This document shows, in pieces, positions 738 to 64,000 of a stretch of 64,000 bases of DNA; positions within the stretch are counted from its first letter, which is position 1; each line of letters begins with the position of its first letter. The notes below the pieces were generated by a model. The model searched no databases and was not told where the DNA came from. It was given only the letters and a program-made list of their open reading frames with translations. The DNA comes from Heterobasidion occidentale (taxonomy: Eukaryota; Basidiomycota; Agaricomycetes; Russulales; Bondarzewiaceae), in assembly GCA_039111635.1 (NCBI GenBank), contig JBCAQO010000002.1:806001-870000 (forward strand). Direction: 5' to 3'. The position numbers and the translations under genes were made by a program.

Positions 738-2971
738 TTACCCCCTTTCTAGGTCCTAACTCCTGAGGGGATTATTTGCTGTCGTGAGCTTCATCGTCAT
801 TCCACGTACAATTGCTTTCTGGTCGTCCAACTAGATTGGGATGCGTCTTCCCAATATGACTTTGTTTTCTGGGGCGAAGACCGACTTACATCGTTTACAA
901 CGCCTAGGAGTTTTCCATCTCCGTTGAGCTGTTTGATTTGGAGCTTGTGATATCGCCACAATACTGACGTTCTCCTTGGTGTTTTTCCTTCACTGTACCA
1001 TTTTGTTGCGAGTATGCTCCTAGAGTCAATAGGCAGCTGCTCGAACTAGGTCTCTCCTGGTACCTTTGATAAGCCAGTTCCGTCTGGCGACAATGCAGAA
1101 AGGTATCACGTGTGAACAATTATGTGATGAAATAGAAACGCATCTGTGGATGGGTGTGTGTCGTTCTTCTTTAGAATGCCGAAGGCCATGCTTCAGTGTT
1201 TCCAGGATAGATCTTCATCTCCTCGATCTCCGGTATCGAGGGGGATTCCAGGTGTGTGGGTTGATCGCTTTACTAAGGCTTAGGCCCACCAACCTATCGA
1301 GAGTGAACAGTTCTCGACTTGTTTTGAATCCAGCAAGACCCCTTTGAAGATCCCTAACTCTGTCAGCCCCATACGGTGGCCCGTCCTGGTTAGAGATTGA
1401 GTGTTCATCCAGAGTTTGTTTGTTATATGGGAGCGAGCATGTAGCCGCGCTCCGCGTATTGAACACAAGGTAAGGATTTGGAAGAATAGACTTTGAACCC
1501 CATGGTCTCTTGAATAGACCATGGTATCCACCTTGACGGTAATTATTGCGGGGTCAGTGTAAGGTATGTCCTGGTAGTTTAACGTCATGCCGGACGTCTG
1601 TAGTTTTGCGTCTTTGCGGACGTCCTCTAGTTTATCCTTAAGTCTTCACGGACTGAGGCTAGTTTATACATAAGTTGTTACAGACTGCCCTGCTAGTTTA
1701 AGCTAAGGTCGTTGCGGACCTATCCATCTCCCAACGTAGGAGTACCTGTAAACAAGACAGCAGGTGTTTCTGTGCGCCGGAACATCCATCGGTGATGAGC
1801 ATAGGGCCGTAGACCAGTTCCTCCTTCTTGACAGGGTTCCCATTGAGGCAAGATGGTGACGGTTTATACTATATCAAACCAGATAACTTATAGAGTTGCC
1901 AGAATAGACTTTAAAGCCTATTTTGACACAACTCACATGGCCCTGTAGACAAAGGGCAGCTCAGTTTATCATCATGAAGGACGCCCATAGTTTATAGTTA
2001 TTGCGGACGTCCTGCTATCGCCTGGCTTGAACCTCCTGAGCCTTGATAGATTTAATCCTCCAGGGTGAGGGTAGTTTAAGGTCATTTCGGACTATTGTGT
2101 TACGAACTGCTTGTTTAGTAACCCAAGAGTAACAGGTTCTTCCCTAGGTCGCACTACGGACTGAGTGGTGGACGAAGTCTCGACTGTATTGAGTAACAAT
2201 ACAGGAGGGAATAATGATTGGCTCTAAGTTACACAGTGTGGGGACTGTGTAGGAACGAAGAGAATAGACTGAAGATCCTCAGCCTATTCTATGGGCCTTA
2301 TATACTGTATAGGGTATAGGGTAAGAGTCCGTGTGCTTCTCCGGGTTCCCATCCAGGAGAGCTGTGGTCGCCGTCTCTCTCAGCTGGTGCCTACTCTTGT
2401 ACTTCTCCAGTCGCACCGATCTATCCTGGTGCGACGAGGTGCTTACCCATAAGCCCTAAGCCCATGGCATGTGAATGCCTCTCTTATCACTGTGTGAACC
2501 TCGTGTCCCTCCAATATAGCCTCTACCGATGTCTTGAAGAACCATCGGTCTAGTCGGCTCCTAAGGACATGCCGAATACCTTGATGTACGCTCCGTAGTG
2601 GAGCCGCCTAGCATGTGATGCTTGAACCATCGGATAGACCGGCCCCGAAGGGCCCTGATCGGTCAAGTCATAACATATTGCAGCTGAAAGCGGTAATTTC
2701 AGCTCCAATATGATCCCAGAACAGAGGGATAATAGTTTATTGTCATTGCGGACTAGATCAACATTGTGGTGTCAACAACAATGTCAATCAACATCTCCTA
2801 TGCTGAAAGGAGTGGTAGTTTAACGTCATTGCGGACGCAGCGGTGCCCACACATATCTCATGTTTGGACACTGCTCATGACCCTGTAAAGGAAAGGGTAA
2901 TCCCAGTTTAACGTCATGGAGGACGTCTGCAAACATGAGGTACGATCCCAGTTGCCTCTTGACTGGCCCTT
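738..2971 (-). mobile_element. Family A internal 3' noncoding region, truncated
   Basis: It aligns with 54649-56339 of the complete family-A copy. It carries the same repeated motif (TAGTTTA, about 3 nt, GTCATTGCGGAC), for example near 1590, 1650, 1700, 2000, 2070, 2730, 2815 and 2900. It contains no coding sequence. The alignment is interrupted by a solo LTR at 2098-2675 and stops at 2971, where the family-B LTR starts. The gag, pol and 5' LTR of this copy are missing. Confidence 0.8.
2098..2675 (-). mobile_element. Solo family A LTR nested in the truncated A element
   Basis: A 578-bp LTR is flanked by the 5-bp duplication TATTG (2093-2097 and 2676-2680). The other copy of the host sequence, at 56006-56022, reads straight through with one TATTG followed by CAGCTAGA, so it is a visible empty site. 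The insertion and the later LTR-LTR loss are therefore well supported. Confidence 0.95.
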
Positions 2972-4442: not shown

Positions 4443-4444
4443 CT

Positions 4445-4454
4445 TGAACGAGCT
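4445..4454 (+). promoter_or_regulatory. Family B primer binding site, self-priming type
   Basis: The LTR end is followed by CT and then TGAACGAGCT. The reverse complement, AGCTCGTTCA, is found inside the B LTRs (27859-27868 exactly; 3991-4000 with one G:U-tolerated change). It sits 33 nt after the TATA box, where transcription should start. This is the geometry of Tf1/sushi elements, which prime reverse transcription with the 5' end of their own RNA. I saw no obvious match to a tRNA 3' end. Confidence 0.65.
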
Positions 4455-11066: not shown

Positions 11067-11209
11067 ATGATGCAGCTAAAGAAGCCGCCCCTGGTTCCTC
11101 GATCAAAAGTGCCACCATCGGCGATCAACGATTGAGAAGCACAACCAAAGAAGCCCAATATAGACTCGTCTTGATCAAAGCCACAGCAGAAACGATCGGA
11201 CAACTCTAA

Positions 11210-11428
11210 TTGGCAGACTCAAGCATACCAGGAGCTACAAAAGCAGACCAACCAAGGATTGGCATGGTCAGGCAAACGACTATGACCCCTTTCGACCCCA
11301 CTCTGTCCACAGTAGCCGTTTATACCGTCGTCGCGACTCTTGCTCTCACCGCTGTCTCCATTGCCATCGCCCTTGTCCTTGGATCCCTTCACGCCGCTGC
11401 CACTATTGGCATCTCCTCCGCCGTATAA
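11210..11428 (+). CDS. Possible small membrane ORF between pol and ORF3 of family B
   Basis: A 72-codon frame follows pol. Its last 35 residues are strongly hydrophobic (AVYTVVATLALTAVSIAIAL), as in one transmembrane helix. The frame starts at TTG; the first ATG is at the Met of GMVRQ. Its end overlaps the TATA box for the next ORF. It may be fortuitous, and nothing comparable was seen in family A. Confidence 0.25.
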   Translation: MADSSIPGATKADQPRIGMVRQTTMTPFDPTLSTVAVYTVVATLALTAVSIAIALVLGSLHAAATIGISSAV

Positions 11429-11431
11429 AAG
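11424..11431 (+). promoter_or_regulatory. TATA box upstream of family B ORF3
   Basis: TATAAAAG lies 57 nt before the ATG of the third ORF. Family A has TATAAAAAG 56 nt before the ATG of its own third ORF (58213-58205), which supports an internal promoter. Confidence 0.55.
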
Positions 11432-11480
11432 ACACCCTGCATCAGACAGAGATGTTCTTCAGCATCCCAGCTACAATTGA

Positions 11481-13153
11481 ATGTCCCTCGCCCCCACACA
11501 CCTCCTCTTAGCTCACTCCCCCCGTTATATTCTCAGCAACATCAGAATGACTTCCGCCCGGACCTCCCCTCATGCTTCCAATACCTCTTCCCCCAACCCC
11601 TTCATCCTCCGCCCCATCTCCCCTCCCACTACTACCCCCACACTCGTTGATGACTCAGACTCAGACTTTGACAGCGAGGATGGCATCCCCTTGGAAGGTG
11701 TCCACGTCGCCGACCCACTCACGGAATTCATCATTCCCCGCTTCCCGGCTCACATGCCGAACCCCCACATCGCCATCCCCCAGTTGGCTTTTGCAGTTCA
11801 CAACGAAAACCCTCGATTCCGCATTCGTGCTCTACCCACCCCCCTTCACGACATCCGCCTCTACCAAGATCTGGCTACAAGCCATAGCATCTACCACCTC
11901 ACACTCGCTGAGGACGAGGCCCCCATCATCTTGAACCAGCCGGGTTTGAAGGCCCCCGTGCATTTCTTTTTTATTTACAGCAAGCAGTCTGGGCGCAATG
12001 CTATCAAGTATTCTCTGGACCGCTCACTCAGACCCAGGCCATCCTCCTCGCCAACATCACAGTCACCTCCTATCGCATGAGAGGGTTAATCAACCTCCCG
12101 GCCATCCACAACAACATGATTAACTTCCGACTAGGCGGGATCTTTAGCAGCAGCTCCGTCCTCCTCCAGATGCACACCATCCCGGCTTGGCTCGACACGT
12201 TGGCCCGAATTCGCTACAAGGAAAACACGATCCGTTGGTTTCGCTTCATAGGGCTCAACGGGAACCGTCTGGAGATAGAAGAGTACGTCCCTAAAGGACT
12301 GTTACCAACTCGCTCCTTCCCCCTCAACAGTCGCGGAGTTCACCCCATCGCCAGCTACTGGCCGGGCGGAAGTATCCCGGAAGATAATGTCAGGCCCTGG
12401 GTTATGACTAAACCAGACATACAGGAACAAGGTTTTCACTCGATTGACGTTGGAGAACCCATGGTCGTTGATCCCCCTGCAGTCACGGAACCTGAGCTCC
12501 CGGCTGCCGAACCTTTTCGGCCCACCGACGAAGAGACCGCTAAGTTCATGCGGCCCACCAGTCCCCCTTACGACCCCGAACAAGCCGTCCGGGATCGCCA
12601 GGCACTTCGGCCGCTACCGGTACCACCCCCGTCACCCCCTGCTGTGTCCCCATCCCCTCCCCTACTCGGCAACGACCTCACCCATCCTATCGTTGTCGAC
12701 AAAACCTCCCCCCAGTCGCCGGACATTCCTGTCGCAACTGAAGAAGGATGGCCCGCAGACGCAATGGACTCCGAAAATGTCTGGCCTAACCCGCCGACTC
12801 TCCCGCCTTCTCCACCCACCGACCCCACCACTCGTACCTGCTGGGAATGTGGACGCTCTAGCCATCTTGTCGTGGGATGTCCAATTACGGGCATTAGACA
12901 GAGAACGGACGTTACGGCGCGTGGCTTTCTTCAGGACTATGACAGACATTGCATGCAGTCCCATAGACTCTGTCTACAGATGGATCGGACGGCTGAAGAA
13001 TATGGATACCACAAGCAGGCATTGGACCACCTAATCAACACTGTTAACTGGACCGGGTACCCCACTCGCAGCATCCCCACCTTCGACGAGGCCCACACAA
13101 GGAGACCCCCCCCTATCATTGGTGCGCCCACCAAACACCGAAGACTTGTATAG
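11481..13153 (+). pseudogene. ORF3 of family B with C-terminal CCHC knuckle, one frameshift
   Basis: A third ORF lies after pol. The first frame runs 11481-12080 and the second continues from about 11985 to 13153. Upstream of the ATG at 12077 the second frame is open and coherent (LTQTQAILLANITVTSYR). A single indel near the T-run at 11968 therefore explains the break, giving an original protein of about 550 residues. Near the C-terminus is CWECGRSSHLVVGC (C-x2-C-x4-H-x4-C), a retroviral-type zinc knuckle, after a Pro-rich stretch. The function is unknown; a second nucleic-acid-binding Gag-like protein is one possibility. There is no env-like signal or membrane segment. Confidence 0.65.
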
Positions 13154-13164
13154 AGAGGGGGTAG

Positions 13165-14010
13165 TGTTAGGACCGCGTCCTAACACGTGCTTCGCACGTG
13201 AATGGATGGGCTGGTCAAGTGCTTCGGACGTGCTACAGACTCGGACCGATTTCCATGACTCGTTACTATTTACATGCTCTGCATGAACGGTTACTTACAG
13301 CTCCTACTTCTTGATGTGGACAGACTTTGGTTCCTGGTTCCTAGTTCCTGGTTCCTGATCGATTACGATGTGCCTCGGTATTTCACATGGATGTGGACAG
13401 ACATTAGTGCCCCAGTACTATAGTTAGATCGATGACGCATCCTAGCTTACGGATCTTGATCGTTGACTTCAGTACCTGAGAAGCGCACAGACCAGATCGC
13501 GATCCTGCCCTAGATACTTCTTTGTATATTTAGCCGAGATGAGCTTCTAAGAAGCTCAGCTCATTCACCTGTAATATATCTGATCTCTGCACTGCACCCG
13601 GTGTCTGGCTACCTTCCTAGCCCACACTTCGTGATCTCTGTCAGATCTGAAAACTCCTTTACACAGTTTGACAAAGCACTGGCCTCGTCTCCCTTCCCTA
13701 CCTACTCCCTCTTCACACATTACTACACCAGATTCGCTGCCTTCCGCGTTCTCAGTTGGGCACCGCCTAGTGTCATCTGTTGGACAGGAGAAGACTACCC
13801 TGTTCCTCCTCATCATCGAGAAGACCTCAAGGATCATCTCCTTAACCTCTTCGAGAACAAAGCCGATAGCGACTCCGAGTTCCTTGAAAGAGCCCAAAGA
13901 CGATCAGTTGTCTTCATTTATTGGAGCCTCTGACTCTACGACGCTGTGGACGTATTAGCCTAGGGATCCCCTTCGTGCATCGGTGCACGTGATAGGTCTC
14001 CGACCTAACA
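13165..14010 (+). mobile_element. Family B 3' LTR
   Basis: An 846-bp LTR with TGTTAGG..CCTAACA ends, preceded by the purine tract AGAGAGGGGGTAG (polypurine tract). The TATA box lies near 13525, and AGCTCATTCA at 13558-13567 is the self-primer equivalent. It is closer to the solo LTR at 27466 than to the 5' LTR. Confidence 0.92.
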
Positions 14011-21902: not shown

Positions 21903-24900
21903 ATGTCCCTCTCCACACTCTTCAGCATTCTTGCCAACCATCCGAAACTCACTAATGGCCTCACCCTTTCCTCTTTCTTTTAGTTCTTTCGGCTCATTGG
22001 ACATTTCAAGGAGAACTTATCATGGCACCGATCACCTGATATCCGGGGCCCTCCTCTCGTCTTGCCAAAGAAGATACGCAGCTTCTGTGCCACTGCGCTC
22101 GGTATCGAAGATCAAAGGCTCATACTAGAGTGCTGGGAGACTCTCCGGGACATAGCATGGGGTACGACTGAAACAGACGAGAGTCGGAGGGCTGGTGATC
22201 TGGTCGACTTGTTTCTGAAGCACGGCGTTGAGTTTGGAATCGGTACATTCCTTTGTTTGCAAGTAATACATTTCTTATTTTCTGTAGGATTCCATGATCT
22301 TTATCCTCCAATCCGAAGGTGCCTTGATCCACACTGCTCGGGAGGACACAACGGATTAGAACCTCAAGAGTTGCTCGATTTGCGCAGATACCGCTGATGA
22401 GCATTCACCCGCACTAGGGTCCGAGGGAGGTATTCAGGAAGCTTTGGGGAGATACCGAACAACGCTAGAAGAGTACCGAAGACGCCGACTTGCACTGAAC
22501 ACGGTCAGTTCCTATCCAACCGACCGCAAGCCACCGAAGGACGTTTGGCAGCACTTGGGTCAGTTCGCCCACACTTCACATACTTACCATAACCGCACAG
22601 GAGTGTTACGATAGGTGTTTACGAGATCGGAGCCAGTATTCCGTGTCGGCCGATGTGCTCCGGGAGTCGGTCGGTCCTTATCGCTTATCTTCCCAACTTC
22701 CACATGGTCGGTCAAATGTGATCTTGCACCATTAATTGGCCACCCTGGTCGTACGTTACTTCTTCTTTATTTTCATTGGGTCTCCAACGCCTGTTCCTGC
22801 TACCTACGCTCGGGCGACGGATCCCGAACGTTTGGGATTTTGCCATCGCTGATTAACTTTTACCTTATCACCTTCGGAACCCATATGGACATCTCACCTA
22901 CCTTCTTATCTTCTCTGTTCGCTAGGGCTTGGCGCCCATTCGACATCTACTCTCATTTCTTGTTCGATATTTTACTTAGGGGCTCTGTTTACTATAAAAA
23001 CCTACATACAACTCTGGAATAAACCAGCTTTCGTACCCCACAGTTCAGTGCTCATTCGCACTCGTCTCAACCATTGAAATTGTCTTTGTCAACTTCCAAA
23101 AACTCGTCATCCTCATCGTTCGGCCTCATTCGCATTCGTACTCGTCGCTTCGCTCGTACCCCTCGTCCTCCCTCGTATATTGTCAGAGTCCCGTGTGGCT
23201 CTTGAAGCACAAAGTTGTCGGTCGCGACACTACCTTCTCGTTACCGACCGAATCCCCGACTCGACCGACCAAACGTTCGGTCGGTGTTCGACGCAGTCCC
23301 GAAACCGTTCGGGCGCTATAATCTCATACTCCCCGTTGTTTCTCAGTACGCCTTCGATTTCTAAAGTCATCACTAACAATTCCTTGTGTATCAGATACTA
23401 GCTCCAGCACCCCTGCCTTAGAGGTTGTTTTAGTGTTGTGCTCGGCACTTAGAGCCACCTCTAGCGTATCACCGCGCTGTTCTCTTCACGCGTGATCATG
23501 GTCCCCTTCCCACCTGGTCGTATTCTGCGAAGTGCTATCGTGAGTGATCAAATTCATGTGTAGTACTAACACTTTTTTGACCCCTATCTGTAGGATGTGG
23601 CACTCGGTATTATCACAACTACTATGTTCATAACGGCACGTGCACCTACTACCTCAACATTCCATGCGCTATCCACGTTACAATGCACTCGTACGTTGAG
23701 GCTGCGCTGTGCGAACACTTTGCAAACTCCATGGTCTGTGCTTGGTAAGCTTATCTCTTCAGGAACATATCCATTCGCTTGACCTGTTTGCAGGGTTTCC
23801 GCTGCAAACAATGCCCACATATATGAATTAGAACACAATATCCCTCAAGTCCTCTCTTGGCCAGTCAGCCTCTCACTCACCGGGGAACTTGTCTGGGACA
23901 CTTTTTTTCTTCATGGCCTTATCTGCGACAGCCACGACCACTCGAAAACTCTAGTCCTCAGTGACAGTACTCACCCGGATCGTCTCCACGAAGCTCTCGA
24001 AGCTTGTAATATTTCAATGGTAGGACCCGGACAGAAATTATGGAACCATGCTTGCAATCAATGTTGTGCCATTGAGGAGAGGAGCGAGGGAACTTGTATG
24101 TCCACTCACTAAACTATGATTATATCTTCTAATTTATCATATACAGATACTCTTCATGCAGTCATTTGTGATGGGGTGACGGTAGAGCGTCCGTGCTGCG
24201 CTCACCATGACTGCCAGGAACCCCTTCCAACCCAACGAGCAAGATACTGTGCCGAGCACACTTGGGAGGAGGGTGTGTGCTGTATCACCAGTTGCAATAG
24301 GCCAGTGGAGCATGGATATCAGACTTGTAATATGCCAGATCACCGCGCGCTCGAGAAGCGCGGTGTTGAGGAACATTCCGCCATGTTTCAGCTATGAAAA
24401 CACCTCAAACGACGCCGGACCGCCCTCATCGATGATTCCATGTCTCTCAACCAACAAGAGGTGGACCCGTTGACCGCGCTGGCCAACGATGACGCTGTTG
24501 AGATGGAAGGGTCGACCAGATGTGCCGGGAAGTCGGAGACAGGCAATGTTCGACTACGTGCCCAATTCGGGCGTTTGAGGACCCATAGTGAACAGCTGTG
24601 CGTTGCGACGTGCGGAGTCGTTCTTGGACGAGCGATGTTCTATGGCTCAGAGGCAGTCAACGGTGTCTGCGTGAGTCCTTCTCTCGGTTTTGGCCTCTAT
24701 CTACCCGTCCTTGCTGTGCCTGCCCTTGCTTCCGATTCCTCCTTCAGAGGGCGTCCGTGCACACCTTCCTTCCCTTTTTCTTTTCTCCTTCTTCCCTTTT
24801 CTTTCTACTGCCCTCCTTTCGTCTCCTTTTCCCTCTGTTGCTACATGCTGACTATTATTATAGCTATTCCTTTGTGCGCTGTTCCCAACGACCCAATCGC

Positions 24901-52960: not shown

Positions 52961-53620
52961 CACACCTCCTGTATCTCCCATACCTCCTGTTCCTCCCGCT
53001 CGTCCCGCCACTCGTCCCGCCACTCGCTCCGCCACTGCTCCCGCCGCTCGTCCCGCCGCTCGTCCCGCCGCCACCGCCATTGCTCCTGCTGCTCGTCCTG
53101 CTCATCTCGCAGCTCGTCCTGCTCGTCCTGCTCATCCCGCAGCTCGTCCTGCTCCTCCCGCAGCTCGTCCTGCTCGTCCTGCTCGTCCTGCTCATCCCGC
53201 AGTGCTCGTCCCGCTGCTTGTCCCGCTTGTCCCGCTGCTTGTCCCGCTTGTCCCGCTGCTTGTCCCGCTGCTTGTCCCGCTGCTTGTCCCACTGCTTGTC
53301 CCGCCACCGTTGCTCCCGCTCCTCTCGCCGCTGCTCTCACTGCTCGTCTTGCTCCTCTCGCCGCTCCTCCCGCTGCTCCCACTCCTCGCTCTGCTCATCC
53401 CGCCGCTCCTTCCACTGCTGCTCGTCCCGCCGATCGTTGCGCCGTTCTTCCCGCCGCTGGTCCCGCTGGTCCCGCCGCCGCTCCCGCTGTTGCCCCCGCT
53501 CCTCTCACCGCTGCTCCCACTGCTCGCTCTGCTCATCCCGCTGCCCCACCCGCTGCTCATCACGCCGATCATTTCGCCGCTCGTCACACCGCTCATTCTG
53601 CTGCTCTTTCCACTTGGGTC
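52961..53620. repeat. Pyrimidine-rich minisatellite
   Basis: Imperfect tandem units of 9-15 bp built from CCCGCTGCTTGT, CTCGTCCTGCT and CCCGCCGCTC, almost purine-free on the plus strand. The regular part is 53215-53300 (12- and 9-bp units). Unit lengths are multiples of three, so several frames stay open; this explains the long Pro/Ala/Leu frame there. Confidence 0.9.
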
Positions 53621-53678: not shown

Positions 53679-54059
53679 TCATAAAGATACCATCTTAGAG
53701 CATTCTTTCTTCAATTCCTTTGCATTGAGAACCGAGCAAGATGTTTTCAGAAGTCTATTTGAGTTTATAGGCAACACCCATGTACACACCTTTATCTCGT
53801 CAGACGAGAGGGCACCATAGGCTTTGGTGCACTCGTAGTAGTGTCCCTCAGGATGATCTTGGAGCCAGTGAGCCAAAAAGATGTTTCTGGCGAGAATTCG
53901 GGACAGTGTAAGTACAATGTGTCAAAAATGATATAAAGACTTACTGTGTACTTATGACATTGGCTTTGTACTTGTGCTTCGCGAAAAGCTTTGATCGTTT
54001 TTGCGCTAAGTTTAGTGCGGCGCCTTTGGAGGATCCAGAAGCGACGGCATTCGAGGAAG
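53679..54059 (-). pseudogene. 3' end of a gene cut by the family A element
   Basis: Three minus-strand exon pieces join in frame: GAALNLAQKRSKLFAKHKYK up to STQ, then NIFLAHWLQDHPEGHYYECT to DEIK, then ELKKECSKMVSL and stop at 53679. Introns are about 53948-53894 and 53780-53717. The frame runs directly into the LTR at 54060, so the 5' part of the gene lies beyond the element, off the window. Not recognised. Confidence 0.55.
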
Positions 54060-54648
54060 TGTTATGAACTGCTCGTTCAGTAACCCAAGAGTAACAGGTT
54101 CTTCCCTAGGTCGCACAATGGACTGAGTGGTGGGCGAAGTCTCGACTGTATCAGACGATAATACAGGAGGGGATAATAGTTGGCTCTAAGAATCCTGTAT
54201 GTGTAGATACAGGGGGAACAAAGAGAATAGACTGAAGATCCTCAGCCTATTCTATGGGCCTTATATACTGTATGGGGGTATAGGGTAAGAGTCCGTGTGC
54301 TTCTCCATATTCCCATATAGGAGAGCTGTGGTCGCCGTCTCTCTCAGCCGGTGCCTACTCTTGTACTTCTCCAGTCGCACTGATCCATCATGGTGCGACG
54401 AGGTGCTTACCCATAAGCCCTAAGCCCATGGCATGTGAATGCCTCTCATATTACTGTGTGAATTCTGTGAGCCTCATGTCCCTCCAATATAGCCTCTACC
54501 GATGTCTTGAAGAACCATCGGTTTTGTCGGCTCCTAAGGACATGCCGAATACCTTGGTGTACGCTCCATAGTGGAGCCGCCTAGCATGTGATGCTTGATC
54601 CATCGGATAGACCGGCCGCGAAGGGCCCCGATCGGTCAAGTCATAACA
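54060..54648 (-). mobile_element. Family A 3' LTR
   Basis: 589 bp, TGTTATGAAC..CATAACA on the plus strand. In the sense direction it has TATATAA at 54267-54261 and, 34 nt on, AGTCTATTCT (54233-54224), the presumed transcript start and self-primer. The adjoining purine tract (sense AGGAAGGGGGTAT, 54649-54661) is the polypurine primer. Confidence 0.92.
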
Positions 54649-57185
54649 ATACCCCCTTCCTAGGTCCCAACTCCTGAGGGGACTACTCGCTTGAGCAGAA
54701 ACAACCTTCATCGTCATTCCACAGACAATTGCTTTCTGGTCGTCAAATAGATTGGGATGCGTCTTCCCAATATCGCTTCGTTTTCTGGGGCGAAGACCGA
54801 CCTACGTCGTTTACAACGCCTAGGAGTTTTCCATCTCCGTTGAGCTGTTTGGTCCAGGCTTTTAGCAACATCAGCCACAATATTGCGTCGCCCTCGGTGT
54901 TCTTCCTTCACCGTACGTTTTGTGTGAGTACACTCCTAGAGTCAATAGGCAGCTACTCGACCAGGGCTCCCTGGTAGGTTTGATGAGCCAGTGTCATCTG
55001 GCGACGATGCAGAAAGGTGTCGTGCGAATGATTATGAGATGAAATAGAAACTCGTCTGTGGATGGGTGTGTGTCGTTCTTCTTCAAAATACCGAAGGCCA
55101 TGCTTCAGTGTTTCCAGGATAGATCTTCATCTCCTTGATCTCCGGTATCGAGGGGGACTCCAGGTGTGTGGGTTGATCGCTTTACAAAGGCTTAGGCCCA
55201 CCAACCTATCAAGAGTGAACATTGCTCTTGACTTGTTTTGAGTCCGGCAAGACCCCTTTGAAGATCCCTAACTCTGTCAGCCCCATACGGTGGCCCGTCC
55301 TGGTTAGAGATTGAGTGTTCGTCCAGAGTTTGTTTTTCACAAGGGAGCGAGCATACAGCCGCGCTCCGCGTATTGAACACGAGGTAAGGACTTTGAAGAA
55401 TAGACTTTGAACCCCATGGTGTCTTGAATAGACCATGGTATCCACTTTGACGGTAATTATTGCGGGGTCAGCGTAAGGTATGTCCTGGTAGTTTAGCGTC
55501 GTGCCGGACGTCCGTAGTTTTGCGTCTTTGCGGACGTCGGCTAGTTTATCCTTAAGTCGTCGCGGACTGAGGCTAGTTTATACAGAAGTCGTTGCGGACT
55601 GCCCTGCTAGTTTAAACCAAGGTCGTTGCGGACCTATCCATCTTCCAACGTAGGAGTACCTGTAAACAAGATGGTAGACCATTTCTGTGCGCCGGAACAT
55701 TCATCGGTGATGCACATAGGGCCCTAGACCAAGTACAGCCATCTTGACAGGGTTCCCATTGAGGAAGGATGGTGACGGTTTATACTATATCAAACCGGAT
55801 AACTTCTAGAGTTGCGAGAATAGACTTTTAGGCCTATTTTGACACAACTCACATGGCCCTGTAGACAGAAGGGCAGCTCAGTTTATCGTCATGAAGGACG
55901 GCAACTAGTTTATAGTCATTGCGGATGTCCGCTATCGCCTGGCTTGAACCTCCCGAGCCTCGATAGATTTAATCCTCCGGGGCGAGGGTAGTTTAAGGTC
56001 ATTTCGGACTATTGCAGCTAGAGGCGGTAATTCTAGCTCCAATACGATCCCTAGAGCAAGGGATAATAGTTTATCGTCATTGCGGACTAGATTAACATCG
56101 TGGTGTCAACAACAATGTCAATCAACATCTCCTGTGCTGAAAGGAGTGGTAGTTTTACATCATTGCGGATGTAGCAGTGTCAAAACATATCTCATGTTTG
56201 GACACTGCTCACAACCCTGTAAGGAAAGGGTGATCCCAGTTTAACGCCATGGAGGGCGTTCGTAGTTTACCGTCATTGCGGACGTCCCAAACACGAGGCA
56301 CGATCCCAGTTGCCTCTTGACTGGCCCTTGAAGCGGAATCCTTGCTTCGGACTTCAAGGATAGAATGGGAGCGCCATGGAGTAGTCGTGGTCTCGTCCTC
56401 GGAAGATCGACAACCCGCTCCATGTCCCCAAACCCCTCGCACGGAATTGAACCGTGTCGACCCCATATTCTTTTACTGTAGGGCGTATGGAATATGGAAG
56501 CGCCTCGACCTAGTCGGCAGGGTTCTGCAACGGTGGAGGCCCTCCCTTCCACCGTCTGCCAGAATACAACCACGCTCCGAGGGTCTTGGTAGCTTTAGCG
56601 TCGTTCCGGACGATAACTAGTTTATCGTCATTGCGGACCAAGCCTTCCGTAGTTTTACATCGTTGCGGATGTATTTTCTCCGTTTTGGGTTACTAATGGA
56701 GTGCGGCCATTAGTTCCTGCATCGCAGATAGGGCCCCCTAATGCGGAAACGACCCTGTAAAACCGGAGATCCAAAGTGGGACGTCCAAAACACCTGTCAG
56801 ACCTTGACAGTGAGGTTGGTCCACCGTTCCCCAGCGGCGAACATGCAACACGATTTCCCACCAATATTCATGCATCATTCATGTACCAGTACCAAGGTTA
56901 TGTTGTGAATCCTAAGGGCCTCCTAATGCGGAAAGGGCCCTGTAAAACTGGGGATCCAAGCGGGACGCCCGATTCGCTTGTCAGAATACCTCTTGACAAC
57001 GAGAGTGTTAGATGCTTGTCCTTGTCTTGAGACCGGAGGGTTGCAACGCAAAATGGTCAGGTACTTCCCCTGCCTTCTTATCTTTTCACAGTTTAACGTC
57101 ATGCAGGACGTTCGTTCCGGTGTCCTGTGCGTGAAACCGGTACCTGTGGTGCGGAGGGTCCTTTCCTCTCCGCCACCGTGTTAAA
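54649..57185 (-). repeat. Family A 3' noncoding region with about sixteen repeat units and hairpins
   Basis: No gene. On the plus strand, units reading TAGTTTA, 2-5 nt, GTCATTGCGGAC begin at 55489, 55515, 55542, 55574, 55608, 55880, 55906, 55989, 56067, 56150, 56238, 56262, 56590, 56618, 56650 and 57089. Many follow a small hairpin: GCCCT/AGGGC near 55857, CCTC/GAGG near 55972, AGCTAGA/TCTAGCT at 56016-56038, ATCCCT/AGGGAT at 56047-56064, CTCC/GGAG near 56130, and ACCCT/AGGGT near 56215. The same order is seen in the truncated copy at 738-2971. Confidence 0.8.
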
Positions 57186-57194
57186 AGCTAGGGG

Positions 57195-58157
57195 TTAGAC
57201 TGTAGCCCAGACATATTCTGTCTGGGTGGATGCGTCTCGACTACTTGTAGCCGGTATCGCTCTGCTGGCTTCGTCCCATGGTTGGACGCGGAATGGGTCA
57301 ATCCGAACGGGACGGACAGGATGGGAGGAGTGTCTTGTATCGGTGCGCGATATGAGGGCGGGTAGGAGCTCCAGATTGATGAAGGAGGAGAACTCGTCCG
57401 GGTGAATGAGTAGGGCGTAAGCCCCATTATTTCCTCGGGCGTACCAGGAGGCGGCCCTATGATCATCTGCGTAGGCCAGAAGCCTGACCTGGTCGCTCGC
57501 GTTAGCGAGGCGTCGGGGTATGTCGTCGCTCTCGCTCCCTGGTTGCCCTGCGAAGAAGTTAGCGAGCCTTTGTAAGGCTAGCGCTGTGGCCATCTGAATT
57601 ACCGCGGAGATGGTGGTGCGCTGGAGCAGTGCGTCTCCTAGCCCTTCCAGCTCTCCGGGGTGCAGATCTCCACTACTGGTAGGGGGTCCTCTGGTCCTGG
57701 TAGTCGATGCACCAGCCGTTGCTGGTTCTTGTATACCTCTCTCAGCAACTGTAGGCAGTTCAAGGTCCGCAGGGTTTCCCGGTCTTCTTCCGCCTCTCGT
57801 TTCCTGCCTTGCGTTTCCTTGAGCCAGCGTTGTCGTCGGTCGCGGAGGCGTTGACGGAGTAGGTCTTCCTTCTTCCTGGTGTCCTTCATCGTGCTCGTCA
57901 TGAGTTCTCTCAAGCCTGGATGAGGCTCGGGGACTCGTTCGATCTTCGATGGTGAGCGCGGCCTGGTGGACAACGATTGGTATGGAAATTCCTTCTGGAG
58001 TCGCTGGGCGGCTGCCTCGGCTAGGGCGTCCAGTGTCGGGGTTGGCCACGGCCAGAATGATGTCTGGTGAGGGGTTTCTTGAAGGGGAGGAGGTAGTTCC
58101 GTCATTGATGAGCATGGCACGTTCAGGGGAGTAATCAAGGGAGGAGTGGTCGGACAT
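57195..58157 (-). CDS. ORF3 of family A, unknown function, 320 aa
   Basis: ATG 58157 (MSDHSSLDYSPERAMLINDG) to 57195, intact. The first 170 residues are Pro/Ser/Thr/Arg-rich and look disordered. The C-terminal part is folded-looking (QMATALALQRLANFFAGQPG, ASWYARGNNGAYALLIHPDE). There is no zinc knuckle, membrane segment or protease motif. It sits after pol in the same orientation, with its own TATA box. Family B has an ORF at the same place but with a CCHC knuckle, and I see no clear sequence similarity. Confidence 0.7.
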   Translation of the reverse strand: MSDHSSLDYSPERAMLINDGTTSSPSRNPSPDIILAVANPDTGRPSRGSRPATPEGISIPIVVHQAALTIEDRTSPRASSRLERTHDEHDEGHQEEGRPTPSTPPRPTTTLAQGNARQETRGGRRPGNPADLELPTVAERGIQEPATAGASTTRTRGPPTSSGDLHPGELEGLGDALLQRTTISAVIQMATALALQRLANFFAGQPGSESDDIPRRLANASDQVRLLAYADDHRAASWYARGNNGAYALLIHPDEFSSFINLELLPALISRTDTRHSSHPVRPVRIDPFRVQPWDEASRAIPATSSRDASTQTEYVWATV

Positions 58158-58218: not shown

Positions 58219-61200
58219 CTAAAGCTTAATCGCCGCAGGTCGGGGTTTGTCGGGGTAGCTTTCGTGGAATTCACGAAGCGCCTCGTCGGCCGTATCTCTG
58301 AGGAGGGCGAAGGGTTCCCAGGTGTTATCGGCTTCGGAGTATCCGACCCACTTGACAAGGTATTTCGTCCCTCGTCCCTGTCGTCTTGAATCTAGAATAG
58401 CCTCCACTTCGTAGTGTTCTTCTTCATTCAAGATCTCTGGGGCAGGTCTGGGGAAGTTCCTTCCGTGGGCCTCTGTCTCGTGATATTCCGTGAGTATGGA
58501 GGCATGAAATACCGGGTGTATCTTCCATGTCTCGGGTATTTTCAGCCGATAAACCAGAGAGCCGATTCTTTCGGTCACTGAGAAAGGGCCATATCGTCGA
58601 GGTGCCAGCTTGAATTTCGGGTGAGTCGTCCGAATGTGGGTTCCTTCTAACCAAACTTGGGTTCCTACTTCCCACTGTGGGAGTTTCCTGTGCAGGTCCC
58701 GGTCCTTGGCGTGCTGCGCTGCTATTTGTAGACTTGCAGCCGCATCTTCTTGGACTTCCTTGATTAGCTGTAAACGTTCAATTACTGCGGGCACCTTGGT
58801 CTCCAGAGCTGAGTCGACCGAATATGGTGGATTGAACCCATAAAGGATTTCAAACGGCGACTTCCCAGTGGCGGAGTGTCTTCGGGTATTGTGGGAGAAT
58901 TCTGCGAAGGGGATCAAGTCTACCCAGTTATCTTGATGGTAGTTGCAGAACACTCGCAGGAATTGCTTGATTTCTTGGTTTACCCGTTCCGTTTCTCCGT
59001 CTGTTTGGGGATGGTAAGCCGTGCTGAGGGCAGGGGTAATTCCCATTCCTTTCCATAGTTCTCTTGTGAACTTTGCTGCAAATTGAGGGCCTCTGTCAGA
59101 TACCACCTTGGTTGGTAGTCCGTATCGTTTGAACACGTTGTCCTGGAAGAGCGTTGTGGTTTCTTCGGCCGTGATTGTCTTCTTGCACGGAGTTATGACT
59201 ATCCCTTTTGACAAGCCCTGATCGACCACCACGTTTATCGAGTCGTAGCCTCTGCTTTCTGGGAGGTCTGTTACGAAGTCGGTGGAGATGAAGCGCCAAG
59301 GGGCGTTCGTGGTTTCCAATGGTTGGATCGGTGGATGGGTCCTGTGGGGCAGGTTCTTGGTGGATTGGCAGATTGCGCATCCATCCACATATTGGTGCAC
59401 GAATTTGGTCATGCTTGACCACCAATAATGGCGCTGTACCAATTCTAAGGTCTTTGCTCGGCCTGGATGTCCTGTAGCCATAGTGTCATGGTGCGTTTTG
59501 ACAATCATTCGTCGAAGGAGGTCGTCTTTCGGGACACAAATGTAACCGTCGCGTCTTGTGATGCCATCTTCATGTGTCCATTTTCCTAGGTCACCCTTCA
59601 TTGCATTTGGTCCTTTCTCCAGCAGTTTCTTGAGGGCGGCATCAACTAGCAAATCGTGTTCCGAGCGCGAGTGTCGAATAAGGGAGAGGATGTCCGAGGA
59701 TACGAGTTCCGTTGCTTTGACGTGTATGCCTTCGCTTGGCTCTACCAAAGTTTCGCTGGATTCGGTGAAAAGTCTGGACGGGAGTAGAGTCTGTGCTTTG
59801 TTATCAGATTCCACCCCCTTACTAAGATCTGGACGCCTGGACAGAGCATCGGCATGATTAGTAGTTCCAGCCTTGTAACTGAGCTGGAAGTCAAATCGGG
59901 ACAAAAACAGACTCCAGCGTGCCTGCCGCCTTGACAGGTCGCGCGCCGTCTGGAAGTGTTCTAGGTTCTTATGGTCCGTCCAGACCTCAAAGGGGTGTCG
60001 AGCGCCTTCGAGGTAGTGTTTCCAGTGCTCCAGTGCCTTGATGATGGCGAGGAGTTCGCGATCATGCACGTCGTAATTTCGTTCGGCCGGTGAGAACGAT
60101 CCTGAGAGGTATGCAACAGGATGCCAGTCGTTATCAGGTCCCTCCTGTAAGAGGACCGCACCGTATGCCGCGAGGGAAGCGTCGGTAACAAGCCGGTAGG
60201 GGCGCATCGGGTCAGGGTACAACAGGACGGGTTGACTGATGAAGGCTTCCTTCAGTCGATCAAACGCCTGTTGGCACTCCGTGGTCCAGTCCCATTTCAT
60301 ATCTTTCTTCGTGAGGTCATGCAGGGGCCGAGCGATCAAGGAGAATTTATCAATGAATCGTCGGTAGAAGTTCCCTAAGCCTAAGAAAGAGCGGATGTCG
60401 CGAACTGTGCGTGGGATGGGCCATTCCTGGATAGCCTCAATCTTCGAGTCTTCCATAGCGACGTGGTCTTTTGAGATCGTGTACCCAAGGTAGTTTAACT
60501 TTTCCTTGTGGAATTCGCACTTCTCTGGTTTGAGGTAAAGATCGTTGTCGCGTAGGATTTGGAGGACTCGTCGAAGAATCACAATGTGTTCTGCCGTGGT
60601 CTTCGTAAAGATAAGGATGTCGTCCATATATACCGCTATTTTCCGGGCCAAGATGAGTTCCTGAAAGATCATGTTCATCATGGCTTGGAAGGTTCCCGGG
60701 GAGTTACAGAGTCCAAAGAACATCACTGTGGGTTCAAAGAGCCCTAAGGGTGTGACGAAGGCTGCTTTGGATTCGTCTCCCTTTTTGATGCGTACGTTGT
60801 TATATCCCCACCGAACATCGAGCTTCGAGAACACCGTTGCGCCTTTAATAATATCCAATAGTTCTTGGATTAATGGCAGGGGGGTGACGTCTCGAATGGT
60901 GTGTTCGTTGAGGTGACGATAGTCTTGTACCGGACGGAGTTTCCCATCTTTCTTGCTTACAAAAAAGAAAGAGGCCGCGCTATGTGCTGTTGACCGACGT
61001 ATTGTTCCTCTGGAAAGGTGCTCCTTGACGAACTTCCCTAACTCATCATGCTTTTCCGGGCTCAGAGGAAATATCCGCGGGGCCTGGGGTACAAAAGATG
61101 GTTTGAGGTTTATCGCGTGGTCCCATATTGTATGTTGGGGAAGCCTCTGTGATTGTCGTTCGCTGAAGATGTCGAGGTAAGAATGATATTCTGTCGGTAC

Positions 61201-62154
61201 CCGATTTTTCAAGTCGGTGGTGTCGATTTCTTCCTCTAGGTCTTCGTCAAAGCTTGCGAACCCCGAGGGTTCTGGAGCTACCTTCCTGATGACGGGTTCT
61301 CCTGCGCTATCCATTGCGGAGGAGTTAAACGGTGTTTGCGCTTCTTCAGCGACTTTCCTTGAAGGTTCGCTCTCGGCTGCCTCTTGTTGAGCTTGACGGT
61401 GTTCCTTCCTTTCGGTTACTTGCTCCTCGAGCCATTCCCGAGCCTTGCGTTGTTGGGTTTTGTGTTCGAGCAGTTCCATGAACCGAGTTTTCCATTCCTT
61501 CGTTGGTACTTGGCCCCATTGTTCCTTGGTCCAAGTCCACGAAGGTCCTACCGGTTCTGAGACAAGATGCGGTTTCGTCCGCTGAGGAATCTTGTCACCG
61601 CGTAGTTTTGCTAGCCATGCCTTCCTGGTAGGCTCTTCCCTTGCCTTGGTAAACCCATATGGTTGTTGGCAATCTCTGGGGCACCGATCAAAGTGTACTT
61701 CACGGCGCCTCCACCCGATGGAGGGGTCGTGGTATTTCAACCAATCCGTTCCTAGGAGCATGTTGTCTTTCCCTAGATTGGTGATGAACATCTGGACGCG
61801 TTCAGTGTGAGTTCTCCCTCGTCTATCCTTGACGGTGAGATTCGCGTCTAGGCCTCGTCGAATGAGGCCTGCCTTGTTGATGGTGTCATCGACGTTGCGA
61901 ACGCGGATGGGGCGGTTTAAAGGGTAGGTGGGGAGATTGTGCTTCTGTACCCACTCTTCGTTTACCAAAATCCCTTCGCATGCTGAGTCGATGGCGGCTC
62001 TGGCTCCAGCGCTTCTTCCTCGAGTTGTCAATCGCATGTCAAGTCGAATGGGGGTAATAATGTGACTGTTCATTGCTCCGATTCGAATATATGACGGGGA
62101 ATCATACTCGAGTTTCTTCAACCTTCTCTCTTCGGCTGGTGAAGGAGAGGTCAA
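58219..62154 (-). CDS. Pol polyprotein of family A: protease, RT, RNase H, integrase, chromodomain
   Basis: A continuous frame of 1311 codons. Protease region ARAAIDSACEGIL (DSA where DSG is usual); RT with FSKLDVRWGYNNVRI and YMDDILIF; RNase H (LVTDASLAAYGAVL, DHKNLEHF); integrase zinc finger (HHDTMATGHPGR, GCAICQSTK) and catalytic residues in FISTDFVTDLPES, VVSDRGPQF and YHPQTDGETERVNQE; and a C-terminal chromodomain (YLVKWVGYSEADNTWEPF). The frame is -1 relative to gag, and the first codon listed is TTG at 62154, so it is probably made as Gag-Pol by frameshifting. All domains are present and uninterrupted. Confidence 0.93.
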   Translation of the reverse strand: MTSPSPAEERRLKKLEYDSPSYIRIGAMNSHIITPIRLDMRLTTRGRSAGARAAIDSACEGILVNEEWVQKHNLPTYPLNRPIRVRNVDDTINKAGLIRRGLDANLTVKDRRGRTHTERVQMFITNLGKDNMLLGTDWLKYHDPSIGWRRREVHFDRCPRDCQQPYGFTKAREEPTRKAWLAKLRGDKIPQRTKPHLVSEPVGPSWTWTKEQWGQVPTKEWKTRFMELLEHKTQQRKAREWLEEQVTERKEHRQAQQEAAESEPSRKVAEEAQTPFNSSAMDSAGEPVIRKVAPEPSGFASFDEDLEEEIDTTDLKNRVPTEYHSYLDIFSERQSQRLPQHTIWDHAINLKPSFVPQAPRIFPLSPEKHDELGKFVKEHLSRGTIRRSTAHSAASFFFVSKKDGKLRPVQDYRHLNEHTIRDVTPLPLIQELLDIIKGATVFSKLDVRWGYNNVRIKKGDESKAAFVTPLGLFEPTVMFFGLCNSPGTFQAMMNMIFQELILARKIAVYMDDILIFTKTTAEHIVILRRVLQILRDNDLYLKPEKCEFHKEKLNYLGYTISKDHVAMEDSKIEAIQEWPIPRTVRDIRSFLGLGNFYRRFIDKFSLIARPLHDLTKKDMKWDWTTECQQAFDRLKEAFISQPVLLYPDPMRPYRLVTDASLAAYGAVLLQEGPDNDWHPVAYLSGSFSPAERNYDVHDRELLAIIKALEHWKHYLEGARHPFEVWTDHKNLEHFQTARDLSRRQARWSLFLSRFDFQLSYKAGTTNHADALSRRPDLSKGVESDNKAQTLLPSRLFTESSETLVEPSEGIHVKATELVSSDILSLIRHSRSEHDLLVDAALKKLLEKGPNAMKGDLGKWTHEDGITRRDGYICVPKDDLLRRMIVKTHHDTMATGHPGRAKTLELVQRHYWWSSMTKFVHQYVDGCAICQSTKNLPHRTHPPIQPLETTNAPWRFISTDFVTDLPESRGYDSINVVVDQGLSKGIVITPCKKTITAEETTTLFQDNVFKRYGLPTKVVSDRGPQFAAKFTRELWKGMGITPALSTAYHPQTDGETERVNQEIKQFLRVFCNYHQDNWVDLIPFAEFSHNTRRHSATGKSPFEILYGFNPPYSVDSALETKVPAVIERLQLIKEVQEDAAASLQIAAQHAKDRDLHRKLPQWEVGTQVWLEGTHIRTTHPKFKLAPRRYGPFSVTERIGSLVYRLKIPETWKIHPVFHASILTEYHETEAHGRNFPRPAPEILNEEEHYEVEAILDSRRQGRGTKYLVKWVGYSEADNTWEPFALLRDTADEALREFHESYPDKPRPAAIKL

Positions 62155-63359
62155 GAAAAATCCTCCGCCAGGTCCACCAACATTTCCCTCGCCTTGGCCT
62201 TTCCTACTTCTTGGAAGAGCGCTCGGACGTCAGTAGTATTACTGACGGGTCCGTTACTTTGTCGTCCGTTAGGCGGTATGTAGCGCTCTCCATCGCTCTG
62301 GCGTGATCCTCCCCTTCTCGCAGAAGGGTCCTCGTGTTCCACCGAATTACCAGGTTGTGGTACCCGACGGTGGTGGCCATGAGAACTCCCCTCCTCCAGT
62401 CCTCGATGTAGTCGCGCATCGTTTCCCACCGGGGATTCTTGCTTGTCTTCATCCTCCATGTCTGCAGCGCGAGTTCGTCTACCTCCTCCGCCCATCGGCT
62501 TGCGCGGATTTCCTCGAGGCGGGGGAACGCCTCTACGAGGGGAACGGCAGTCAGACGCCCAATGCCCTAGCTTCCCACAGTTGAAACAACGAGTGGTAGG
62601 CTTGCCATCATAAGTGCGCTTCTGGCGAGCGGCATCTCTTTTTCGGGAGGCGTCAATGTCCATGTCGACTACCTGGTTGTTCATTCTGCGAGGAGCTGTG
62701 GTAGAGTTGTAGCGACGAGCTGGTTGGAGGTGAAAGCGGTTGAGGAAGTCGCTTCGGAAAGAGGTGGAGTTGGCGAGGATCGCCTTTTGAGCACTTCGGG
62801 CTCTCAGGCGTCCGTCTATTTCACAGGCAGTGTTGACCCAGTCTTGGATTGTGTCTTTCGGCGGGGTTTCTTTGTCATAGATTTTGTCCATGACCCTCGG
62901 ATCGAGCCCCCTCTGGAAGTAAGGAACTTGTTCCTTGTCGGTGATGTCGGCGTCGGCGGCTATAAGGATGAATTGGTTTGAATATTCATCCACCGTCATC
63001 TTCCCCTGAGAGAAAGACATGAGGGCGCTTCGGGCCTTGTCCGTGAGGTTCGTTTCCTTGAACTGGAGTTTAAATTTGTTAAGGAAATTGTCCCAAGTTC
63101 CTACGGTTTTAGGCGGGGTCGCCCCTACTGTCTTCTTTAGGAAGCTTTCTGCCCATACGCCGGCCGTTCCATATCTCATGCAAGAGAGAGCGAGGGAAAC
63201 CTTGTCCGTATCCGTCTTGTATCGGTCTGATTCTGTTGTGAAAAGGAGGAGGCAATTCATAATGAATTTCTGTGATTGTGTTCGGTCCCCTTCGAAGTTA
63301 TCAGGGAGTTTGAGCTTGCCCCTTCCCGACGAGGCGGGGGGGTCTGTAGGGTTTGACAT
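62151..63359 (-). CDS. Gag of family A
   Basis: First ATG of the frame at 63359 (MSNPTDPPASSGRGKLKLPD); 402 codons, ending at TGA 62153-62151. The capsid-like region has NFLNKFKLQFKETNLTDKAR and FQRGLDPRVMDKIYD; the zinc knuckle is CFNCGKLGHWASDC. A U5 run (plus-strand A5 at 62156-62160) lies just before the stop, where the pol frame is open in -1. The same frame is open without an ATG for another 120 or so codons upstream to about 63740 (acidic and aromatic, WAWDEIAEDWVEPPQY). Confidence 0.9.
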   Translation of the reverse strand: MSNPTDPPASSGRGKLKLPDNFEGDRTQSQKFIMNCLLLFTTESDRYKTDTDKVSLALSCMRYGTAGVWAESFLKKTVGATPPKTVGTWDNFLNKFKLQFKETNLTDKARSALMSFSQGKMTVDEYSNQFILIAADADITDKEQVPYFQRGLDPRVMDKIYDKETPPKDTIQDWVNTACEIDGRLRARSAQKAILANSTSFRSDFLNRFHLQPARRYNSTTAPRRMNNQVVDMDIDASRKRDAARQKRTYDGKPTTRCFNCGKLGHWASDCRSPRRGVPPPRGNPRKPMGGGGRRTRAADMEDEDKQESPVGNDARLHRGLEEGSSHGHHRRVPQPGNSVEHEDPSARRGGSRQSDGERYIPPNGRQSNGPVSNTTDVRALFQEVGKAKAREMLVDLAEDFS

Positions 63360-63818
63360 AATGTTTCGGGTGTTAATCGGTGTTTGAATATCCGAGGATT
63401 TGGACTCGGATGTTCCTTCTTCTTCTTCCAATGTGTCCGGGATTTCCGGTTCGGGGTTTCTGTACTGGGGTGGCTCTACCCAGTCTTCTGCTATTTCGTC
63501 CCAAGCCCACTCAGCTTCTGTTTCGTCTTCTCTTGTGAAGAAGTATCGTCCTTCTCGGTACGAGCAGTTATCAAAGTTTGGGGGTGCTGGTCGATTGGTG
63601 TCGGAGTAATACCAGCGGTTTTCTCTTTGATGGATAGGACGATTATTCTGTCGAAGTTGGTTATGGGTTCGTCTAGTGCCTGGTGGGAATCCTAGGCCTA
63701 GGTCTTGCTCCAGGGTGTGTGAAGTAACGCTCTTCGGTGGGGGTCAATGCCACCGATGAGGGTTATGAGAAAGAGTGTGGCAGCAAGCAGAGTGTGGTGC
63801 AAGGTAGGGGCAAAAGCG

Positions 63819-63828: not shown

Positions 63829-63830
63829 AG

Positions 63831-64000
63831 TGTTATGAACTGCTCGTTCAGTAACCCAAGAGTAACAGGTTCTTCCCTAGGTCGCACAATGGACTGAGTG
63901 GTGGGCGAAGTCTCGACTGTATCAGACGATAATACAGGAGGGGATAATAGTTGGCTCTAAGAATCCTGTATGTGTAGATACAGGGGGAACAAAGAGAATA
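63831..64000 (-). mobile_element. Family A 5' LTR, cut by the window edge
   Basis: 170 bases identical to the start of the LTR at 54060. Confidence 0.93.

Follow-up and report, generated by a model that had tools for sequence, protein, structure and literature searches.

A candidate array of coremin-class exoribonuclease-resistant RNAs in a fungal chromovirus

The window analysed here is a stretch of 64,000 nucleotides from Heterobasidion occidentale (contig JBCAQO010000002.1, positions 806,001 to 870,000). It contains a Ty3/gypsy retrotransposon for which the minus strand is the sense strand and whose pol carries a chromodomain, placing it among the chromoviruses. Between the third open reading frame (ORF) of this element, ORF3, and its 3' long terminal repeat (LTR) lie about 16 short hairpin-plus-tail units. 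These are probably coremin-class exoribonuclease-resistant RNAs, arrayed in the non-coding 3' region of the transcript, and would give rise to nested stable 3' RNAs. The motif, its orientation, copy number and position, the second hairpins, the compensation within stems and the conservation are all computed observations. As far as the literature was searched, the coremin unit is known and its host element, array form and scale appear to be new.

The repeat units

Sixteen tails, AAACT(A/G) or AAAGCTA, lie at 55489-57109 of the window, all on the minus (sense) strand and inside the span to which the first-pass annotation had assigned about sixteen units. Typically, the sense unit is a hairpin, GTC[CGCAAN]GAC (loop in square brackets), followed by a gap of 3 nt, or 8 nt in three units, and then the tail; the spacing between units is irregular. 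The annotation had placed many of its units directly after short hairpins. Additional hairpins do exist, but GTC..GAC is itself a hairpin and, read in the sense direction, the additional hairpins follow the tail. With up to three mismatches allowed, a 21-base form of the motif matches the window 20 times against 0.34 expected, a count reached in none of 100 shuffles; 11 of these matches are in the main array, eight in a truncated copy and one elsewhere in the window.

Seven of the 16 units, all with the tail AAACTA, have loops that fit the strict coremin consensus YGNNAD. Units 3 (56618..56638), 5 (56263..56283) and 8 (56067..56087) read GTC[CGCAAT]GAC, unit 7 (56150..56170) ATC[CGCAAT]GAT, unit 9 (55989..56009) GTC[CGAAAT]GAC, unit 10 (55906..55926) ATC[CGCAAT]GAC and unit 15 (55515..55535) GTC[CGCAAA]GAC. 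Unit 8 is followed by the hairpin ATCCCT[TGCTCT]AGGGAT and unit 9 by CCTC[GCCCCG]GAGG. Six further units have loops ending in C: unit 2 (56650..56670; ATC[CGCAAC]GAT, a compensated stem, AAACTA), unit 4 (56590..56611; GTC[CGGAAC]GAC, AAAGCTA), unit 16 (55489..55509; GTC[CGGCAC]GAC, AAACTA) and the three with 5 nt more in the spacer, namely units 12 (55608..55633; AGGTC[CGCAAC]GACCT), 13 (55574..55599; AGTC[CGCAAC]GACT) and 14 (55542..55567; AGTC[CGCGAC]GACT), each with AAACTA. The remaining three units form a second class, with a CUNCAU loop and, nearly always, an AAACUG tail: unit 1 (57089-57109; GTC[CTGCAT]GAC), the nearest to ORF3, unit 6 (56237-56257; GCC[CTCCAT]GGC, a compensated stem) and unit 11 (55879-55899; GTC[CTTCAT]GAC). 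Loops across the array family are CGCAAU, CGCAAC, CGCAAA, CGAAAU, CGCGAA/C/U, CGGAAC and CGGCAC, together with CUNCAU where the tail is AAACUG. A long gap in the array holds a duplicated 45-base module that is not of coremin type (56730-56774 and 56915-56959, 89% identical).

Correspondence to coremin

As set out in PMC10520033, coremin consists of a first hairpin (hp1) with the loop YGAD or, at six nucleotides, YGNNAD, an essential spacer and a second hairpin (hp2) that may be any small hairpin, two pairs with a stable tetraloop being enough. The hexaloops reported there as Xrn1-resistant in the context of beet necrotic yellow vein virus (BNYVV) are CGCAAU, CGCGAA, CGAAAU, CGUGAA, CGGAAA and CGAGAU, and the first four are shared with the array family. 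Coremin stalls yeast Xrn1, in Saccharomyces cerevisiae cells too, where its non-coding RNA arises through Xrn1 (PMC5869530).

The units correspond to coremin in stem, spacer, second hairpin and position, and about half of them in the strict loop. The hp1 stem, in which coremin tolerates other Watson-Crick pairs, has its three core pairs intact in 15 of the 16 window units, the exception being an A.C mismatch in unit 10, whose majority row among copies reads GTC/GAC; all 48 core pairs of the majority rows are Watson-Crick. The coremin spacer is 8-10 nt long and ends in AAACUA(C), with an essential CU, and 13 of the 16 units have N3 plus AAACU(A/G) or AAAGCUA; three of the 16 tails end in G. All 16 lie on the sense strand after the last ORF. 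Eleven of the 16 units have a hairpin of -2 kcal/mol or better that starts no more than 6 nt past the tail, which exceeds what random positions and shuffled sequence give. The mean hp2 energy is -3.16, compared with -1.43 at all positions of the array (P 0.003) and -1.15 in shuffles, none of 300 of which reaches it. Because the hp1 of one unit can be the hp2 of the unit before it, tandem units interlock. Six units use the next hp1 in this way (tail ends 56618, 56263, 55906, 55574, 55542 and 55515), including unit 5, for which the hairpin of unit 6 serves; for the unit with its tail end at 55574 the shared hp2 reaches -1.9 at best.

Exact strings of hp1 plus spacer are also found in the genome, GTCCGCAATGACGTTAAACTAC (CGCAAT loop) four times and GTCCGCGAAGACGTTAAACTAC (CGCGAA loop) 15 times, and the unit at 2815-2836 in the truncated copy is exactly GTCCGCAATGACGTTAAACTAC. 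The 20-base BNYVV motif occurs once in the genome, in a copy with a loop two bases short.

The array and the coremin motifs of viruses are alike in the short hp1 with a C-G-(NN)-A loop, the AAACUA spacer, the small hairpin that comes next, several identical loops and the sense-strand 3' untranslated position; some viruses also repeat the motif. The array is unlike them in its arrangement of about 16 units as tandem and spaced groups, in its residence in an LTR retrotransposon, in its more than 1500 exact-pattern genome matches, in the C-ending loops of 194 of 605 family units and in the CUNCAU/AAACUG class, which the tested consensus does not cover. Among the best-ranked open-access papers, preprints excluded, none was found that describes coremin in a retrotransposon or a DNA phage, which is not proof of absence. 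Rfam gave no match at gathering score in the window; the best sub-threshold match, in the array, had an E of 2.7, and none was coremin-like. A snoRNA H-box, a preQ1-like pseudoknot, a -1 frameshift heptamer, a tmRNA tag and a splice branch point were compared informally, and none explains the combination of loop, tail and hp2.

The second class of unit suggests that loop base 2 may contact the last spacer base. Position 2 of the loop and the final base of the tail combine as U-G in 121 cells and G-A in 517, against U-A in 3, G-G in 2, A-A in 26 and C-G in 1; these cells are not independent, because the unit lineages are few. The same U/G pattern was found in six stretches of viral contigs (L261-L266), five of them intergenic, compared with none and one stretch for the swapped forms, the last of these patterns differing slightly in its fixed bases.

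Occurrence across the genome

The exact pattern GTCCGCAANGACN{0,8}AAACTA has 1513 matches in the 45 Mb genome, and the reversed-pattern control has none. A motif search across copies had been proposed in the first-pass annotation; run on 46 copies with a looser definition of the unit, it finds 605 units on the sense strand, 0 on the antisense strand and 21 in reversed sequence. These copies are the window's own and 45 further array-region copies, most of which were fetched by the array or the motif. Seven loci of the set L001-L053 were dropped as overlapping or self (L004, L006, L009, L039, L040, L041 and L044), and L045, which has no array match, is absent from the copies; L038, which has a long insertion, is included in the 605 units and omitted from the 45-row alignment. 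The looser definition found no unit on either strand in 57.5 kb of the remaining window sequence.

Copies carry 4-18 units, or 12-18 (median 15) in the 29 copies of at least 2400 bases. Local tandem pairs with a pitch of 26-34 nt expand and contract between copies, one of which (L007) has nine units. Among copies chosen by ORF3 alone, nine of ten carry units (4-10 in the 2.6 kb read). On C1 and C2, all 33 motif places that could be assigned to an ORF3 lie downstream of it and on its strand. This assignment used 51 of 100 listed motif places; the raw count is 33 of 41, with eight motifs also near a second, opposite ORF3. The layout is also kept, as the annotation had observed, in the truncated copy at 738..2971 (minus strand), which has 11 tails, eight of them with a hairpin. 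LTR-like copies surround this array at 158-738, 2097-2676 and 3093-3720, and that at 2097-2676 splits it.

Coremin-like motifs in phages

The exact hexaloop pattern was found in 85 stretches of IMG/VR, with a gap of exactly 3 in 80 of 87 matches; the reversed control with this gap was found in three. The phage loci concerned are L054-L138, L261-L266 and L291-L334, plus L268, L269 and L270. Ribosomal RNA rows and duplicates were removed before intergenic matches were counted. With genes taken from a simple ORF script, 53 of the 66 distinct gap-3 matches are intergenic, and 48 of 50 are followed by a gene on their own strand. When two stem pairs were left free (103 stretches), 39 distinct non-canonical matches were obtained, and in 22 of them both free pairs are Watson-Crick, against about 1/16 by chance, some of the matches possibly coming from related phages. 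Of these 22, 19 are intergenic, compared with 4 of the other 17. A full unit lies between co-directional genes in Enterococcus phage SEsuP-1, Lactobacillus prophage Lj928 and Synechococcus phage S-B43. Hp2 is not enriched downstream of the phage motif (mean -0.52 versus -0.47 shuffled), and for this reason the phage motif is termed coremin-like only. Matches to a tetraloop pattern in viral contigs look like chance, two of 15 distinct matches being intergenic. The matches listed from bacterial genomes are a mixture that includes Bacteroidetes 16S rRNA, in which the chance likeness takes the form GTCCGCAAGGAC..GAAACTAGGTGCTGC (L142, L144, L170, L176, L185 and similar).

The phage occurrences bear on the alternative that survives best, in which the units bind an RNA-binding protein (Gag, the ORF3 protein or a host factor) as a packaging, localisation or export signal and the likeness to coremin is a structural coincidence. 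Protein-binding arrays are typically tandem hairpins with a conserved loop and tail, and the units fit this pattern; their confinement to the sense strand, their presence in nine of ten ORF3-picked copies and the adjoining conserved ORF3 are also as such a signal would have it. However, a defined motif that blocks an exonuclease is matched in its hp1, its loop rule, its spacer and its hp2 (PMC10520033), and the hexaloop motif is also present in phages, where a common binding protein is improbable, so that protein binding is an unlikely account of the array. The suggestions of an RNA packaging or export signal and of a protein-binding array, both made in the first-pass annotation, are not supported in that form. 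The unit corresponds to the coremin class of Xrn1-resistant RNA (PMC10520033), which the annotation had not considered. An indirect role in packaging through Xrn1 is possible, because packaging of yeast Ty3 needs Xrn1 (PMC4589538).

Stem compensation and conservation

The 48 core pairs of the 16 per-unit majority rows include the compensated changes ATC/GAT and GCC/GGC, and the core pairing exceeds that obtained when 3' arms are reshuffled among units (P 0.0037), the covariance check that the annotation had called for. A fourth pair, formed in 12 of 16 majority rows, is varied (C-G, A-T or G-C; arm-shuffle P 0.013). Conservation was measured as the mean minor-base frequency in 45 aligned copies, the statistics by class covering 15 of the 16 units. 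Diversity is 0.000-0.010 in tail columns and 0.020-0.045 in stem columns, whereas the other 1390 columns of the array have a diversity of 0.057. Within the loop, position 5 is at 0.0016 and position 6 at 0.10. Tail diversity (0.0048) is about tenfold below that of base-matched columns (0.0460), a difference reached in none of 5000 draws, and the contrast persists outside CpG-type contexts (0.0038 versus 0.0427). Tails are intact in 634 of 658 cases, random six-mers in 1721 of 2533.

These values can be set against the possibility that the array is a functionless satellite, captured or locally amplified, whose conservation comes from recent amplification and gene conversion. The variation of tandem pairs between copies, from 12-18 units in the 29 long arrays to nine in L007, would be expected of a satellite. 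The greater diversity of the rest of the array than of its tails and stems, and the excess of intact tails over intact random six-mers, would not, and a satellite origin without function is very improbable. The captured satellite of the first-pass annotation is not supported as proposed, and the array is not an ordinary unstructured satellite: stems covary between units, the tail is strongly conserved and the spacing is irregular. What does stand is the annotation's view of a structured, RNA-level array kept in the family.

Arrays of protein sites occur inside the fly gypsy element, and sequence conservation is high in the tail and in parts of the loop. Both would suit a DNA-level array that is bound by a DNA-binding or chromatin factor, in the manner of an insulator, or that provides sites for LTR regulation. 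The stems are nevertheless compensated between units (ATC/GAT, GCC/GGC), more clearly so in phages, and the units are confined to the sense strand, which leaves a DNA-level function little credence. That the units mainly block ribosome scanning or translation rather than an exonuclease is equally hard to credit, for although coremin blocks scanning ribosomes in vitro (PMC10520033) and the phage motif precedes genes, the array follows the last ORF of at least 200 aa, where scanning ribosomes are unexpected.

Observations that weigh against the coremin assignment

Several observations count against the identification of the units with coremin. Strict loops are found in only seven of the 16 window units, one of which (unit 10) has the stem mismatch, and in 293 of 605 family units (292 YGNNAD and one YGAD); the remaining family loops comprise 194 ending in C, 106 CUNCAU and 12 others. 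A C-ending loop, CGAAAC, was not resistant in the BNYVV context in vitro (PMC10520033); two of the four chrysovirus motifs are naturally C-ending, according to the same source. The spacers of units 12-14 are 5 nt too long. There is no clear hp2 at units 1, 4, 12 and 16 (tail ends 57089, 56590, 55608 and 55489) and a weak one at unit 13, so that hp2 is weak or absent in five of 16. A competing hairpin of 8 bp in the window copy pairs the 3' side of unit 3 with the 5' side of unit 4; its exact form is present in two of the loci L001-L053. Conservation is unremarkable at loop position 2 (0.041), a base that coremin needs.

Stem pairs 5-6 do not reach significance in the arm shuffle (P 0.13), and single copies show no preference for G.U over A.C among their mismatches, which gives no wobble signal for the sense RNA. 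The counts of G.U versus A.C are 4 versus 20 at pair 1, 30 versus 52 at pair 4 and 28 versus 77 at pair 5; pair 6 alone shows more G.U than A.C. This lack of bias does not support selection on the RNA after insertion, and decay of CpG in dead copies is a plausible source of the mismatch pattern. Finally, L045 has ORF3 but no units in 2.6 kb, so the array, although kept in nine of the ten copies picked by ORF3, is not kept in all. In L045 another repeat, like that at window 22391-23471, replaces the array directly after ORF3.

Possible mechanism and significance

By analogy with coremin, we infer that the array stalls an exonuclease and that this benefits the element. On the basis of coremin biochemistry, Xrn1 coming from the 5' side would be halted by a folded unit when still one nucleotide short of hp1. 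From a decapped transcript of the element it would remove gag, pol and ORF3 but leave the array and the U3-R end. The stable non-coding RNAs so produced would form a nested ladder, each beginning just ahead of a working hp1; their 5' ends are predicted to run from about 57110 (if unit 1 works) to about 55510. The redundancy of many units would allow the next to stop the enzyme where one fails. In tandem stretches a single hairpin would double as the hp1 of its own unit and the hp2 of the preceding one.

The benefit may be that the 3' end of the template is kept, that Xrn1 or P-body factors, on which Ty3-type elements rely, are occupied, or that RNA silencing is blunted. RNA packaging and focus formation of yeast Ty3 require Xrn1 (PMC4589538) and the host genome has genes with XRN_N and Piwi domains, so that both capture of the enzyme and suppression of silencing are possible. 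A broader and more tentative proposal is that coremin-class roadblocks are a general tool of mobile elements, reinvented or exchanged among RNA viruses, double-stranded DNA phages and LTR retrotransposons, and that in this chromovirus they have been multiplied to serve as a decoy, with which the decay enzyme of the host is made to produce nested non-coding RNAs that trap Xrn1 or saturate silencing and thereby favour transposition. This may be so, though the odds lean against it.

Comparable arrangements are known. Flaviviral Xrn1-resistant RNAs (xrRNAs) are likewise 3' roadblocks, sometimes duplicated, that yield nested stable RNAs, the subgenomic flaviviral RNAs (sfRNAs). They differ in their large ring-like fold with pseudoknots, the array units being far smaller; no search for such a fold was made here. 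Yeast Ty3 is not known to have a chromodomain or an ORF3. It is alike in being a Ty3/gypsy element whose assembly and RNA packaging rely on Xrn1 and P-body factors, and it differs in that such an array is not described in the available text of PMC4589538. Plant Retand elements carry tandem repeats downstream of pol and before the 3' LTR (PMC11963269), but belong to a non-chromovirus lineage and have antisense ORFs, and what is described in them is tandem repeats rather than hairpin-plus-spacer units.

xrRNAs are known mainly from RNA viruses. An array of about sixteen in a retrotransposon with many copies would, if correctly identified, add the mobile elements of cellular genomes to their carriers. 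It would also provide a direct mechanism by which an LTR element deals with Xrn1, the enzyme on which Ty3 packaging depends. Furthermore, the array supplies hundreds of natural coremin variants, including a class in which a change at loop base 2 goes with one at the last spacer base. The structure of coremin RNA is described as unsolved in PMC10520033, and with these variants its fold can therefore be tested by comparison.

The element and its surroundings

The element has reverse transcriptase, RNase H, integrase and chromodomain in its pol ORF (58219..62154), a zinc knuckle in its gag ORF (62151..63431) and LTRs, as a chromovirus does; all features are on the minus strand. The 3' LTR is placed at 54059..54649 from repeat boundaries, and the window includes part of the 5' LTR at 63829-64000, these 172 bases being matched with 100% identity by 54058-54229. 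The 2.5 kb between ORF3 and the 3' LTR contain no ORF of at least 200 aa. The listed relatives of pol, at up to 54% identity, are agaricomycete or metagenome proteins and, with the window proteins, which include a fungal protein kinase, they point to an agaricomycete host.

ORF3 (57195..58157) encodes 320 aa in the window copy, and its open frame is about 474-480 aa in many other copies. It has no Pfam match and no relative among the viral contigs searched, and its predicted structure has a mean pLDDT of 39.7. Its relatives are Heterobasidion and metagenome proteins at 38-60% identity, and the genome has at least 125 places related to ORF3, from 392 candidates of which 125 were scored.

The window contains another chromodomain LTR element at about 3726-14010, with reverse transcriptase and integrase at 8100-11066 and flanking repeats; its 3' region (11000-13300) has no repeat array. 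Outside the array-bearing element, beyond its 3' LTR, a long imperfect tandem repeat with periods of 9-42 bases lies at 52994-53606.

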